A program made the translations under genes and the position numbers. From positions 186,001 to 250,000 of the forward strand of contig NZ_JAFCLU010000005.1 of assembly GCF_018130385.1 (NCBI RefSeq): DNA of 64,000 nt. Direction: 5' to 3'. The notes below the pieces were generated by a model. That model had not been told where the DNA came from. It saw only the letters and a list, made by a program, of their open reading frames with translations, and ran no database searches. Each line of letters starts with the position of its first letter. Within the stretch, counting starts at the first letter, position 1. Shown piece by piece: positions 5,305 to 14,130 of the stretch. The stretch is from Bradyrhizobium sp. AUGA SZCCT0283 (GTDB taxonomy: Bacteria > Pseudomonadota > Alphaproteobacteria > Rhizobiales > Xanthobacteraceae).

Positions 5305-7389
5305 CTACGCCGCACGCACCTCCGACAGGAAGCGGTTGACCTGTCCGGCGAGATCCTTCGACTGCGAGGACAATTGCTCGGCGGCGCCAAGCACCTGATT
5401 GGCGGCGGCGCCGGTGTCGTCGGCGGCCTTCTGGACGCCGGTGATGTTGGAATTGACCTCCTGGGTGCCGCGTGCCGCTTCCTGGACGCTGCGCGAGATT
5501 TCCTTGGTCGCGGAGCCCTGTTCCTCGATCGCCGCCGCAATCGCGGTGCCGATCTGGTCGATCTCGGCGATCACGTTGGCGACGTTCTGGATCGCCGTCA
5601 CGGTCTGGTCACTCGCCGCCTGAATTGAGGCGATCTGCTCGGAGATTTCGGTGGTCGCCTTTGCGGTCTGGCCGGCCAGCGATTTGACTTCGGAGGCGAC
5701 GACGGCAAAGCCGCGGCCGGCATCGCCGGCGCGCGCGGCTTCGATGGTCGCGTTCAGCGCCAAGAGGTTGGTCTGCGCGGCAATGCTCTGGATCAACGTC
5801 ACGACGTCGCCGATCTTCTGCGCGCCCTCGGCGAGCGAGCGGGCGGTGTCGCCGGTGCGCCGCGCATTGTCGACCGCGCGGGCGGCGATCTCGGTCGATT
5901 GCGCGACCTGGCGGCCGATTTCCGAGATCGAGGAGGCCAGTTCCTCGGTGGCGCTGGCAACCGTCTGCACGTTGGCGGAAGTCTGTTCGGAAGCAGCGGC
6001 GACGATGGCCGCCTGACGATTGGTGAGGGTTGCGGTCGATGACATCGACTGCGCGGTGTCTTCCATGACCGACGACGCCGACGACAGCCCGCCGACGAGT
6101 TCGGTGACCTTGGCTTCGAACACGCGGGTGAGTTCGTCGAGCACCTGGGCGCGGCGCATCTTGCCGTCGCTCTCGGCGGCCTTCTCGGCGGCGAGCCGCT
6201 CCGCCTCGATCATGCTGTCCTTGAAGACACCTACGGCAGCAGCCATCGCGCCGATCTCATCGCCGCGGCCGGCGCCGGCGATTTCACCGGAGACATCGCC
6301 GCCGGCCAGCCGCGACATCGTGGCGGTGAGGTCGACGATCGGCCTGCAGACACGGCGGCGCACCATCACGATCAGCGCGGCGCTGGCGGTGACAACCGCA
6401 ATGAGGACCGCGAGCGCGATCAGGAAGCTGACGCGCGCCGAGGAATAGGCCGTGCCAAGAACGTGCTCGGCGTTGTCGTAGAAGGCGTCGCGCAGCCCGA
6501 CCACGGCGCCGAGGCCGATTTGCGATTCCGCGAAAAAGACGTCGACATCGTGCTCGTACTTGCCGGTGGCTGCGCCATCCTTGGCAAGCTTCAATTCCTT
6601 GCCGAAGCGGTCGACATAGAGCTCGTTCATCTTGCCGAGCGCCGCCGCCACATTGGCGGGCGTCGCGGGATTGCCGCGCAGTTCCTGCAGCGTCATCAAG
6701 ATCTGGTCGGCGCGGCCCTGCGAGCGGCTGAACTCCATCTTTTCGGCTTCGGTGGCGGCGCGCTTGGCGCCGACGAGATTCTTGTGAACGCTGGCGTTGT
6801 AGCCGCCGACGTCGCGCAGCGTCCAGGCGACGTTGGCGTAGACCGCCTGCCGGTAGGCGTCGCCGTCGAGCAGCGCCATGCGGCGCACCTGTTCATCGAG
6901 CAGCGTGGTGATCGCGGTGTTGAACACGGCGTTGTCGGCGACGATCTTCTTGGCGGCGTCCTTGCGGGCTTCAGCCGGGCCGTCGATGGCCTTGTCGATG
7001 GCGTCGCGAAGGGCCGCGAACTTTGCATTCAGCGCATCGATGCCGGCGCCGACGGCCGCGGCATCGTCGAGTGCGCCGGACAGGTTCTTGCGGATTGCAT
7101 TCATCTTGTCGCGCGCGGCGTCGGTCTGCTTGCGGTATTTTTCATTCATCTCGGCGCGCATCTTCGGGTCCACCGCGGGCGGGCCGTACAGGATGTTGGT
7201 GGAAAAGCCGCGCTCGGGATTCATGTAGCGCGGGATCTCGCCGACCGCGCGCACCACCTCCAGCCGGCTTTGCGCGACCGAGACCTTCTCCATGGTCTGG
7301 TACTTCGAAGCCGCCACGTAGACGGCGAGACCGCCGCCGACGGCGGAAAGCGAGACGATGGCAGCGGTGAGGAGGGTGCCGATTTTCAT
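5305..7389 (-). CDS. Methyl-accepting chemotaxis protein
   Basis: A 694-residue inner-membrane chemoreceptor. TM1 covers about residues 8-27, followed by a periplasmic helical region of about 290 residues that contains [13 protein letters not shown], reminiscent of the ERG motif of NIT-type (nitrate/nitrite) sensing domains. TM2 lies near 320-345, then a HAMP domain ([17 protein letters not shown]...) to about 395. The C-terminal signalling domain has the conserved hairpin tip [17 protein letters not shown]...[12 protein letters not shown], which contacts CheW/CheA. The ligand is not determined. No che genes lie nearby, so it is a stand-alone receptor. It is divergent from the NmrA-like gene at 7553. 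Confidence 0.93.
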
Positions 7390-11256: not shown

Positions 11257-11336
11257 GTAGGATGGGTGGAGCGAAGCGATGCCCATCGCGCCTATGGCCG
11301 CGATTGATGGGTTTCGCTGCGCTTTACCCATCCTAC
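11257..11336. repeat. Palindromic repeat (GTAGGATGGG family)
   Basis: TGTAGGATGGGTGGAGCGAAGCGATGCCCATC is mirrored by GATGGGTTTCGCTGCGCTTTACCCATCCTAC. It lies between the SDR stop and the 51-residue gene on the other strand and may act as a bidirectional transcription end. Confidence 0.75.
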
Positions 11337-11354: not shown

Positions 11355-11510
11355 CTACTGAATGCCCTGATGCTTCGCGTGCCATTTCGGGCCGGGGCCG
11401 CGCATGTAGTGCAACTCGGGGCGGTAGGGGTTGCGGGCGAGATTGATCAGCCTGTGCCAATGAATCACGATCTCTGTCAGGTGTCGGAGCAGCGGTTGCA
11501 TGGCCAGCAT
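11355..11510 (-). CDS. 51-residue basic protein, partner of DUF6894-like gene (copy A)
   Basis: Begins MLAMQPLLRHLTEIV and ends with the block RNPYRPELHYMRGPGPKWHAKH. The same C-terminal block occurs in the 60-residue protein at 13536..13718, so both are probably real. The upstream sequence gagaggtcgcc is almost identical to the one before copy B and supplies a ribosome site. It starts 9 bp after the stop of the DUF6894-like gene, as in copy B. Rich in His, Arg and aromatic residues, with no membrane segment. No family or function is recognised. Confidence 0.6.
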   Translation of the reverse strand: MLAMQPLLRHLTEIVIHWHRLINLARNPYRPELHYMRGPGPKWHAKHQGIQ

Positions 11511-11519
11511 GGCGACCTC

Positions 11520-11753
11520 TCAATGCAGCCTGCCGAGCATGGACGAAAACGGCAGGACGAAGATTTCGTCGTTGAGATCGTCGCTGACATGCAGCGTCCA
11601 ATCGCGCCAGTCTTCCGGGCCCTGCGCCGCTATCAGCGACTGCACGACGCGGGCGGCGTGGTCGCGCATCTCGGCCATGTTTCCGACGGCGGTGCCGCGA
11701 TGATCGACGCATACGCCCTCGGAATTGGAGTAGTGGAAATAGACTCTGGCCAT
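11520..11753 (-). CDS. DUF6894-like small protein (copy A)
   Basis: A 77-residue protein: MARVYFHYSNS...VCVDHRGTAVGNMAEMRDHAARVV...WTLHVSDDLNDEIFVLPF. The layout (beta strand, Asp-x-x-Gly, an acidic helix, then a C-terminal strand with DDLNDEIF) matches the DUF6894 family common in Bradyrhizobium and Methylobacterium. The paralogue at 13728..13961 has the same length and shares most positions, including YFHxSNS, EDWRDW and HVSDD. First gene of a two-gene cassette with the 51-residue protein. Biochemical role unknown. Confidence 0.72.
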   Translation of the reverse strand: MARVYFHYSNSEGVCVDHRGTAVGNMAEMRDHAARVVQSLIAAQGPEDWRDWTLHVSDDLNDEIFVLPFSSMLGRLH

Positions 11754-11999
11754 GTCCGACTCCCGCCATTGCGATTCACGCTAAAAAAATAGCAGGCGGG
11801 AGATCGACTTAATATTCGGGGAGATTGCGTACGGGATACTACGGGGGCCAGCGACCTCAGGTGGAACTGGTCGGTAAACTTGTTCGAAAATTATCTATTG
11901 CCGCGGGAGGAACGAGACTTTCGGTTCGGCAGTTTCCACGAGGAAGCCGCGACGAGTGAGTCGCTGCGGCGTGGACTGGTGGAACCCTGGGAGAGCGAC

Positions 12000-12185
12000 A
12001 TGATGTCGGAAATGCAGATCCACACGATTGCGCGCCAGATGATGGAGAAGCACGGCCTGACCGCGATCGCGCAAGCCGCCCACAATGCCCAGGCTAGCGA
12101 GAGCAAGGGCGATGCCGAGGAAGCCAGGGAGTGGCGTCATATCGAGGACGCTATGAAGATGATGCGGGGACCGCACCAGAGCTGA
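12000..12185 (+). CDS. Small conserved hypothetical protein, 61 residues
   Basis: Begins MMSEMQIHTIARQMMEKHG and continues as a charged helical protein ending MKMMRGPHQS. The frame is open from 11880, but the ATG pair at 12000/12003 is preceded by GGGAGAGCGAC, a good ribosome site, so the short form was chosen. A predicted amphipathic helix with many Ala, Glu and Met and no hydrophobic segment suggests a cytosolic protein. I recall similar small proteins in Bradyrhizobium; function unknown. Confidence 0.65.
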   Translation: MMSEMQIHTIARQMMEKHGLTAIAQAAHNAQASESKGDAEEAREWRHIEDAMKMMRGPHQS

Positions 12186-12220
12186 GTTCCGCGCGATCCG
12201 AAGGCCTGGAAGGAGCAATG

Positions 12221-12246
12221 CAGTCGCGCGAATGCGCGACTGACAG
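12221..12246. terminator. Hairpin between convergent genes
   Basis: CAGTCGCGC-GAAT-GCGCGACTG is a perfect 9-bp stem with a tetraloop, between the 61-residue gene (+) and the coiled-coil membrane gene (-). A CTTTT run follows a few bases later on the plus strand. Confidence 0.5.
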
Positions 12247-12267
12247 GCTTTTGTCGAACCCGGCTTG

Positions 12268-13281
12268 CTACCGCAGCGGCATCGGCGGGCGCACCACCGG
12301 CTCGCCGTCATCGGCGATCGTTTGCTTGGGCGGTGCAGGCGATAACGGTGCGGCGGCCTGCGCCGGCGGGAGCGGCGCTGCAGGAGCGGCGGCAATCGGC
12401 GCAGGCGAGTAGGAAGGCGAATAGGAATAGGCCGGCTTCGGCTTGCGCACGGGCGGCGGCGGGGCGGCCGGCCGCGATGCAGGCGGCGTCAGCGCCGACA
12501 CCCTGGGCCGCAGGTTCTGCTCGACAGGCCTGGTTTCGGCCGCTTTGCCCTCTGAAGCCTTGGCAAGTTCACGCGCCATTTGGGCCTGGCTCGCCTTGAG
12601 CTGCGCGATGGTGGTTTTCAGCTCCTCGACCTGCTGGCCCATCGTGGTGAGATCCTGCGCCATCGATTGCAACTGGGCCGATTCCGCAGCAGGAGCAACC
12701 GCGGCAGTGGCAGTAGTGGCGGCGGGTTCGGGCTGAGCCGGTGCTGCGGCTGCCGTCGGTTGCGCGGCGGCCTGATCCGTTGCGGCGGTTTCAGTGGCCG
12801 GGGCGCTCGGCTGTTCCGCGGCGGCAGGCCTAGTTGCCGAAGGCAATGCCGCCAGCACGAAGGGCGGCGCCCACTCGGCGGCCATCGCCTTGGCCTGATC
12901 GCCATAATGCTGCCAGGCCGCGGCGGCCATTGCGCCGCACAGGCCGAGCAGCGCCATGACCACGCGCTTCACCCATTTGGACATCGGCCGTTCGCCCGGA
13001 GGCTTGAGACCATCCACCTTGATCTCGCTTGGCCTGACGTTCTCGAGCTGGATATCGCTGGCCCGAAACGTCGGTTCGACCTGCGGTATCGGCGCGCCGG
13101 CCGAAATCGGCGGCGTAACGTGGACTTGCGGCTTCGCCGCGACCTGGACGTGCGGCGCCGCTGGCGGGGCGGCCGGATCGTGCGCCAGCGGCGGCGCCTT
13201 TTCGGCATGCGCGTGCAGCAGCGATTCGATTGCGAAGACGTCGTGCGGATCGGTGTCTTTCAGCGTCGGCGTGGATTGCAT
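12268..13281 (-). CDS. Single-pass membrane protein with Ala/Pro-rich periplasmic region
   Basis: A 337-residue protein. The N-terminal 100 residues are cytosolic and Pro/Ala-rich. One transmembrane helix follows (KRVVMALLGLCGAMAAAAW, about residues 105-125). The remainder is low-complexity Ala/Pro/Glu with a short predicted coiled coil (MAQDLTTMGQQVEELKTTIAQLKASQ, about 205-240) and a Pro-rich tail. The ATG at 13281 has AAGGGA 8 bp upstream; the open frame extends further but without a ribosome site. It may be an envelope-associated scaffold, which is inference. It lies between the two DUF6894 cassettes. Confidence 0.7.
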   Translation of the reverse strand: MQSTPTLKDTDPHDVFAIESLLHAHAEKAPPLAHDPAAPPAAPHVQVAAKPQVHVTPPISAGAPIPQVEPTFRASDIQLENVRPSEIKVDGLKPPGERPMSKWVKRVVMALLGLCGAMAAAAWQHYGDQAKAMAAEWAPPFVLAALPSATRPAAAEQPSAPATETAATDQAAAQPTAAAAPAQPEPAATTATAAVAPAAESAQLQSMAQDLTTMGQQVEELKTTIAQLKASQAQMARELAKASEGKAAETRPVEQNLRPRVSALTPPASRPAAPPPPVRKPKPAYSYSPSYSPAPIAAAPAAPLPPAQAAAPLSPAPPKQTIADDGEPVVRPPMPLR

Positions 13282-13535
13282 TGGCGGTCCCTTGCTCAGT
13301 CCAATGTCACCCGCATCGGGCGGCGAGCATGCTTTGCGGCGTGGAAAACCCTCTGCCCAGAAAGCCTTGTCCAAGCCGCCACACGGCCAGCGAGGTTTGA
13401 CCAAAGCAAGGCGATCTCGTGGAGAGGTTGGGGCCGCGGGTTCCGGTGCTGGAACCGGCACGCGAAGAAAGCGCGAAGGGAATAGGGGGATTTTCGGGAT
13501 CTGGCGCAGAACGCCCCCGGGTGCGCGCTCGCGTC

Positions 13536-13718
13536 TTAGAGGGCGACGCCTGCGACGTCAGCGCGATGCCTGGCGTGCCATTTCGGGCCGGGGCCGCGCA
13601 TGTAGTGGCGCTCGGGACGATAGGGGTCGCGGGCGCGCTCGATCAGGCGGTGGCACCGCGCCACGATCGCATCGAGGCGGCGAAGCAGCGGCATGAAGGG
13701 CGGTCGCGCCGGCAGCAT
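13536..13718 (-). CDS. 60-residue basic protein, partner of DUF6894-like gene (copy B)
   Basis: Begins MLPARPPFMPLLRRLDAIV and shares RDPYRPERHYMRGPGPKWHARH with the 51-residue protein at 11355..11510. Its ribosome site region gagaggttgcc is nearly the same as in copy A, and it also starts 9 bp after the preceding DUF6894-like stop. Strongly basic and His-rich, which might suggest nucleic-acid or metal binding, but there is no recognised fold. Confidence 0.62.
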   Translation of the reverse strand: MLPARPPFMPLLRRLDAIVARCHRLIERARDPYRPERHYMRGPGPKWHARHRADVAGVAL

Positions 13719-13727
13719 GGCAACCTC

Positions 13728-13961
13728 TCAGTGCGGTTTGCCGAGGACGAAGGCGAACGGCAACACGAAGATCTCGTCGTCGAAATCGTCGCTGACATGC
13801 ACGACCCAGTCGCGCCAGTCTTCCGCGTCGCGTCCCATGATCAGCGACCGGACGATGCAGGCAGCGCGGTCGCGCGCCTCGGCAAGGTCGCTTACCGCTT
13901 CGCCGGATCGATCGAGCCGGACTTCCCGTGAGTTCGAGCAGTGGAAATAGACTTGCGTCAT
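13728..13961 (-). CDS. DUF6894-like small protein (copy B)
   Basis: A 77-residue paralogue of the protein at 11520..11753: MTQVYFHCSNSREVRLDRSG..., EDWRDWVVHVSDDFDDEIFVLPF. Length, strand order and spacing to the downstream tiny gene are the same as in copy A, which shows a duplication of the whole cassette. The copies have diverged in the helix region and at the C-terminus (LGKPH versus LGRLH). No catalytic residues are evident. Function unknown. Confidence 0.72.
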   Translation of the reverse strand: MTQVYFHCSNSREVRLDRSGEAVSDLAEARDRAACIVRSLIMGRDAEDWRDWVVHVSDDFDDEIFVLPFAFVLGKPH

Positions 13962-14130
13962 GTTGGCCTCCTGTAAGCGAAGCTACTCTTATTGGTACGA
14001 AGCTAGCGCCAGAAGGTTCTGCCCATCCGTGATGCACCTCACATCCGGTCGTTAAGATTTTATTAATGCTGTAGAGGTCAAACTTTAGGCATGGAATCGC
14101 AGCGGAACCGGACCTCCCGAGCCGGCAGTT

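Follow-up and report, generated by a model that had tools for sequence, protein, structure and literature searches.

The question raised by this locus is why a gene for a DUF6894-like protein followed at once by a gene for a tiny basic protein occurs twice within a short distance, and what the tiny protein does. The locus lies in a window (the whole stretch of DNA that was analysed) of 64,000 nt from Bradyrhizobium sp. AUGA SZCCT0283 (contig NZ_JAFCLU010000005.1, positions 186,001 to 250,000), and both two-gene cassettes are on its minus strand, about 2.2 kb apart. In cassette 1 the DUF6894 gene (77 aa) occupies positions 11520..11753 and the tiny gene (51 aa, isoelectric point (pI) 10.9, net charge +5) positions 11355..11510; in cassette 2 the corresponding genes are at 13728..13961 (77 aa) and 13536..13718 (60 aa, pI 11.5, net charge +8). 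Each tiny gene starts 9 bp past the DUF6894 stop, and the ribosome sites, gagaggtcgcc and gagaggttgcc, each begin at that stop. A first-pass annotation, made from the letters of the window, had given these coordinates, lengths (77 + 51 and 77 + 60 residues), 9-bp gaps and gagaggtYgcc sites, and all of them were found as it had given them. Its label DUF6894-like was also right, both larger proteins scoring above the curated cut-off of PF21834 (46 bits for copy 1 and 45.7 bits for copy 2, versus 24.1 bits) over profile positions 1-69 and 3-69 of 69, respectively. The conserved C-terminal block that it had noticed in the two tiny proteins reflects a likeness beyond chance, the cassettes being 72-79% identical to each other in DNA and the tiny protein being genus-wide. 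As judged from sequence comparison, the tiny protein is a member of an unnamed, mainly Hyphomicrobiales family with the motif YxPExHYMRGxGP.

By the sequence evidence the tiny genes are real, translated proteins under protein-level selection, as had been argued from their conservation. In fact, the ratio of non-synonymous to synonymous polymorphism (pN/pS) in frame was 0.20 for the 60-residue form (9 sequences) and 0.32 for the 58-residue form that is common in the genus (25 sequences), versus 1.05-2.17 in shifted frames, so that purifying selection is seen in the own frame only; for DUF6894 the values were 0.09 and 0.18. The variable sites of the 60-residue form number 11, 10 and 32 at the three codon positions, respectively, third positions dominating. 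We regard it as extremely improbable that no protein is made and that what is conserved is instead an element acting as RNA or DNA, or a consequence of an overlapping-frame constraint. Both tiny genes are overlapped by long alternative open reading frames (ORFs), but the third-position bias and the shifted-frame pN/pS of at least 1.05 speak strongly against this, and overlapping constraints, which the annotation had named as a possible source of the conservation, are very unlikely to explain it. Moreover, no family reached its gathering score in an Rfam scan, and the protein motif is preserved across the order although the flanking protein sequence differs. In five annotated plasmid records, the related ORF is entered as a hypothetical protein in two and there is no gene at its place in two others, whose gene table is incomplete; the fifth record lacks a gene table, and the match in it did not pass the tiny-protein profile.

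The motif YxPExHYMRGxGP is the constant part of the protein; what comes before it is, in most members, a stretch that varies and is often basic. It reads YRPELHYMRGPGP in copy 1 (11388..11426, minus strand) and YRPERHYMRGPGP in copy 2 (13584..13622, minus strand), and 12 of its 13 columns are invariant or at least 90% identical among 32 aligned members. Positions 4, 12 and 13 are conserved in 192, 194 and 194 of 194 sequences, respectively, and are free of the search pattern, by which the other positions were partly demanded. At E ≤ 0.1 the tiny protein, stand-alone copies counted in, is present in 194 of 195 Bradyrhizobium genomes and in 183 of the 183 near-complete ones, with one genome, G126, reaching no better than E 0.07. 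At E ≤ 0.001 the tiny-protein profile found members in at least 170 of 248 same-family genomes, representing 36 of 47 genera, and in at least 47 of 297 genomes from the order, representing 17 of 122 genera (ten of these 47 belong to the same family); at E ≤ 1e-6 it found them in at least 6 of 289 genomes of the class, the own genome included. These tallies are lower bounds because only first-look candidates were scored (21-26 per genome in the family, order and class searches). In six loci of one genus of another family (L131-L135 and L137 in our numbering of loci), the motif lies close to the N-terminus, and the other end of the protein appears by eye hydrophobic and membrane-like, so that the anchor to which the motif is attached is there a different one.

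Searching Pfam, NCBIfam, PADLOC and PHROGs with the tiny proteins of the window returned nothing at E ≤ 1. A Pfam scan of 42 members (31 coupled and 1 stand-alone, then 10 stand-alone, one being in both sets) gave no DUF1127 match at E ≤ 1, its only matches being one each to TetR_C_9 and YmjE (E 0.05-0.1), and an NCBIfam scan of 32 members gave merely two stray matches to one other family. As far as these scans go, the members are covered by no Pfam or NCBIfam entry, and the proposals made below on their function are testable. With the 60-residue protein as query, a phage search gave no match and a plasmid search one at E ≤ 0.1; searching the tiny family against solved structures by sequence gave nothing convincing (best E 1.9). 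The literature searched, with subscription journals mostly outside its reach, neither mentioned the motif strings HYMRGPGP and MRGPGP nor named DUF6894 or PF21834.

In Bradyrhizobium, the tie between the two genes is tight. Titled genome records gave 79 loci, almost all from Bradyrhizobium, in which 85 of 89 tiny matches follow a same-strand DUF6894 gene; the loci had been retrieved through their resemblance to coupled members, so this proportion need not hold for the whole family. For the statistics on pairs we considered only the 126 of 131 pairs that are distinct in DNA: the gap between the two genes is exactly 9 bp in 96 of them and 7-11 bp in most of the others, and the DUF6894 stop is TGA in 122. 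Read-through of this TGA, giving a DUF6894-tiny fusion, was considered and rejected, as the genes are in frame in 97 of the 126 pairs but out of frame in 29. In the reverse direction, an alignment of the coupled subfamily matched 48 DUF6894 genes in 28 of 30 Bradyrhizobium genomes, with one to five coupled-type genes per genome, and a tiny gene follows 36 of the 48 (that is, 28 of 30, plus 7 of 17, plus copy 1 of the window). Just one subfamily of PF21834, a domain to which Pfam assigns no function, is coupled to the tiny gene; in the own genome two of the ten DUF6894-type loci examined (17 are listed) have it, and the other eight do not.

Outside the genus the cassette is rare yet present, for instance in L255, from another genus of the same family, where the gap is 15 bp (DUF6894 at 6911-7144 and tiny motif at 6740-6853, oriented on the minus strand of that locus), and in L225, from a metagenome-assembled genome titled Reyranella. 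Since the latter title is outside the family, the pair in L225 may reflect a transfer or a binning error. In L302, a DUF6894 gene of the coupled subfamily is directly upstream of a clpX-like gene (ClpX named by eye), with no tiny gene there.

The tiny gene also occurs alone. The own genome has four members, two in the window and two further ones with no adjoining DUF6894: one (L003/L237) is divergent from ettA, and the other (L004/L246) is 44 bp downstream of a SulP permease gene, with a sulfatase gene 2.6 kb off. Among 53 loci of the family and order searches, 38 have no match to the coupled-DUF6894 profile within about 1.5 kb, the remaining 15 being all of the same genus, and among 81 larger loci selected for stand-alone copies a coupled DUF6894 gene is present in L255 only and absent from 80. 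The first-pass annotation had asked whether the tiny gene always follows a DUF6894 gene, which it does not, and had proposed that the tiny protein works with its DUF6894 partner. For Bradyrhizobium this proposal is partly supported by the 85 of 89 matches, and co-operation of the two proteins there is plausible from the gene arrangement, but it is not a general rule: it cannot be the general job of the motif because the stand-alone members lack DUF6894.

To describe the neighbours of stand-alone members, we considered 72 further loci, 71 of which had a tiny match (L316 was dropped). The outside-family set comprised 52 loci, excluding L246 of the own genome, and the stand-alone loci of the own family were 28, L255 being left out as a DUF6894 cassette. 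The controls were 40 windows, 800 kb in all, drawn from same-family and same-order genomes plus one other. The usual divergent gene of own-family stand-alone members is ettA (19 of 28 loci: 8 of 10, namely L237-L244, L253 and L256, plus 11 of 17, plus none in L246); its identity was tested in one locus (L240), in which it scored 955 bits on TIGR03719 versus a cut-off of 807. EttA is a factor acting on paused ribosomes. The control windows gave two EttA matches, one match each for TauE, LysR and TctA, one each for two of the three sulfatase queries, and none for sulfatase maturase or SulP in the 40.

Outside the family, a three-subunit molybdoenzyme operon matching all three queries (MopB catalytic, Fe-S and DmsC/NrfD-type parts) is present in 12 of 52 loci, under five family labels (L249, L320, L321, L323-L325, L330, L338, L340, L344, L348 and L349), and in none of the 40 control windows. 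In 11 of them the tiny gene precedes the catalytic-subunit gene by 29-113 bp, and in L320 it comes immediately after the gene for the DmsC-like subunit; a divergent LysR gene lies within about 200 bp in 10 of the 12, and a TauE-like gene (TauE named by eye, with no NCBIfam match) is within reach in 5. The enzyme of L249 matched PF00384, PF04879 and PF04976, and the catalytic and Fe-S subunits reached no NCBIfam cut-off. From the subunits and the TauE-like gene, we infer that the enzyme is of the SoeABC (sulfite dehydrogenase) type. In three of the 52 loci (L248, L341 and L355), a gene for an anaerobic sulfatase maturase (a radical SAM/SPASM protein) is 116-177 bp downstream of the tiny gene, and sulfatase and TctA matches are also present; the one maturase tested (L248) reached the cut-off of TIGR03942. 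The tiny gene follows TctA within 130 bp in two of the 52 loci and a fused TRAP permease gene in one.

The two proteins of the cassette differ in charge, the net charge of the tiny protein having a median of +8 (range 4 to 12, 125 coupled members) and that of the DUF6894 partner, which is acidic or neutral, a median of -6 (range -13 to 0). The structure model of DUF6894 is a small beta-beta-alpha-beta-beta domain of fair confidence (predicted local distance difference test (pLDDT) 84.6, predicted template modelling score (pTM) 0.71). Its nearest folds are AcrIF9 (Z 7.2, root-mean-square deviation (rmsd) 2.6, 61 aligned residues) and the phage antitoxin Dmd (Z 6.7, rmsd 2.5, 56 aligned), both below Z 8 and possibly reflecting a common arrangement; Foldseek gave no match at E ≤ 0.001 in the PDB or in the viral library, and a comparison with solved structures by sequence gave nothing convincing (best E 0.49). 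In a model of the read-through fusion, the tiny part is a helix followed by a tail, along which the mean pLDDT drops from 61 to 40.

The explanation that we favour, tentatively and at somewhat short of an even chance, is that the tiny protein is a modular accessory microprotein, made of a helix and a docking motif, that Bradyrhizobium pairs with an acidic DUF6894 partner to which it would bind. Each cassette would most likely be a translationally coupled two-gene operon, with the second start 9 bp past the first stop and the ribosome site at the stop. The acidic DUF6894 would bind the basic microprotein via helix and charge, and would control when the motif of the microprotein is free. The motif itself would dock on a partner other than DUF6894 that is common in Hyphomicrobiales. 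We suppose such a common partner because other members are single genes by ettA, a molybdoenzyme, anion transporters or a sulfatase maturase; moreover, the motif is identical with and without DUF6894, and DUF6894 is therefore unlikely to be what it docks on. The shared 13 residues may thus dock on something common to these unrelated neighbour genes, and Bradyrhizobium would have placed several copies of the microprotein under a DUF6894 partner, with differing upstream elements.

Several points weigh against this explanation. The fusion model has a pTM of 0.49 and gives no interface between the two parts. Twelve of the 48 DUF6894 genes of the subfamily have no intact tiny gene downstream (in two of the twelve, L300 and L305, the start of the tiny gene is readable by eye and the motif is gone), and two of the 30 Bradyrhizobium genomes have no coupled-type DUF6894 at all. 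Adjoining genes co-inherit even without interacting. As regards the stand-alone members, the neighbour loci were selected by hand from ranked lists, the 52 outside loci include several close relatives and the three maturase loci all come from two genomes of one genus; because the loci are related by descent, the neighbour links are not independent events.

Other explanations place the weight differently. A wider and less probable one, rather unlikely in our estimate, is that YxPExHYMRGxGP is a general Hyphomicrobiales docking module in unrelated operons (DUF6894, EttA, the SoeABC-like molybdoenzyme with LysR, sulfatase maturation, and the TctA, TRAP and SulP anion transporters), recruiting all of them to one target or to one kind of control; several of these partners would point to sulfur-compound or anion metabolism. 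We give a similarly low chance to the tiny protein acting by itself in trans, on a target such as the ribosome or RNA, with DUF6894 as a co-expressed neighbour only. The general function would then be that of the stand-alone copies found through the order, and in Bradyrhizobium and a few relatives the pairing with DUF6894 would be a matter of joint expression. The strongly basic charge of the tiny protein and the divergent translation-factor gene ettA agree with this, but the ettA link may be synteny alone, a pairing in 85 of 89 cases with mostly constant spacing exceeds what co-expression requires, and the charges of the two proteins are complementary.

That the motif, short, near-invariant and ending in Arg-Gly-Pro-Gly-Pro, stalls the ribosome at this RGPGP end and controls a downstream gene as an arrest or leader peptide would suit the tiny gene leading 11 of the 12 molybdoenzyme operons and having ettA as a neighbour, and the motif may resemble known arrest motifs. 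We consider it improbable. In L320 (after the DmsC-like gene), L314 (after TctA), L250 (after the TRAP permease), L246 (after SulP) and cassette 1 (after DUF6894) the tiny gene is the last on its strand, the gene called next being encoded on the other one, a position that speaks against a leader peptide acting in cis. Slightly less probable still is a toxin-antitoxin pair with the acidic DUF6894 as antitoxin and the tiny basic protein as toxin. Gene order, coupling and opposite charges fit such a pair, as does the presence of coupled-type DUF6894 genes, one to five of them, in each of 28 genomes out of 30, and Dmd is among the folds nearest to the DUF6894 model, at a Z that is not meaningful by the scale of the tool. 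This is made unlikely by the stand-alone members lacking the partner (80 of the 81 loci chosen for them have no coupled DUF6894; other antitoxin families were not searched for) and by the family being present in all the near-complete Bradyrhizobium genomes searched, which is not how a mobile addiction module is distributed; furthermore, the tiny proteins have no PADLOC, Pfam or NCBIfam match.

Among known systems, DUF1127/YjiS-like proteins are small, often shorter than 50 residues, and widespread in bacteria, and those of Agrobacterium act by binding the kinase PhoR, according to one account (PMC12501420). The tiny family resembles these microproteins in kind only, the DUF1127 profile test being negative. 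A further likeness is to TIGR02811, the formate-dehydrogenase-region small twin-arginine translocation (TAT) protein, in that the tiny protein too is encoded beside a molybdoenzyme; it differs in showing, by eye, no evident twin-arginine signal. The molybdoenzyme beside the stand-alone tiny genes has the molybdopterin, Fe4S4 and DmsC-type parts of PhsA/PsrA/SoeA-type operons. When a microprotein recurs in unrelated operons with its motif almost unchanged, it may point to a partner common to them, for the finding of which the 13-residue motif is a defined bait, and DUF6894, a domain with no function assigned in Pfam, gains a concrete candidate partner.

As for the duplication, both cassettes occur together in 16 loci, all differing in DNA, the copy-1 kind of tiny gene being beside the copy-2 kind in 15 loci other than that of the window. 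For each of the 32 copies in these loci, the DUF6894 protein is nearer to a copy of another locus than to its sibling, and the proteins closest to DUF6894 copy 2, in other Bradyrhizobium loci, have 97-99% identity with it. Judged by these distances, the duplication of the cassette is old and kept. The four genes that flank it in the window are all present beside 29 of 131 pairs, with some of the four beside more, and 48 of the 131 have a different common flank.

The elements upstream of the two cassettes differ, and the two may be under different control. Upstream of cassette 1 is CCGTA-N3-TCCC-N13-CCGAAT (11814..11844, minus strand), a putative regulatory element that has no other perfect match in the 8.07 Mb of the own genome; in eight other genomes there is a single match in five, each adjoining a cassette, and none in three. 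Upstream of cassette 2 is TGTGA-N6-TCACGGA (14026..14043, minus strand), a candidate site like those of the CRP family. Of 129 distinct coupled DUF6894 genes, 65 have its core, TGTGA-N6-TCAC, in the 250 bp before them, versus 0.03 expected from plain shuffles, an enrichment to be read with the 129 sequences being related and the site sitting at two different distances. Taken by itself, the single match of the window is no surprise (0.34 expected). None of the 129 coupled DUF6894 genes has an EcfG (general stress) promoter box upstream, the number expected being 0.5. The sole other TGTGA-N6-TCACGGA of the own genome (L236, C79:149535-149552) precedes an ORF of 64 residues that contains a hydrophobic stretch.

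Two further features adjoin cassette 1. Between a gene for a short-chain dehydrogenase/reductase (SDR) and the cassette there is an inverted repeat with 31-nt arms (84%) at 11257-11336 of the window. Divergent from the cassette, on the plus strand, is a 61-residue ORF at 12000-12185 (ATG at 12000), and relatives of a longer reading of this ORF adjoin many cassettes in other Bradyrhizobium loci.

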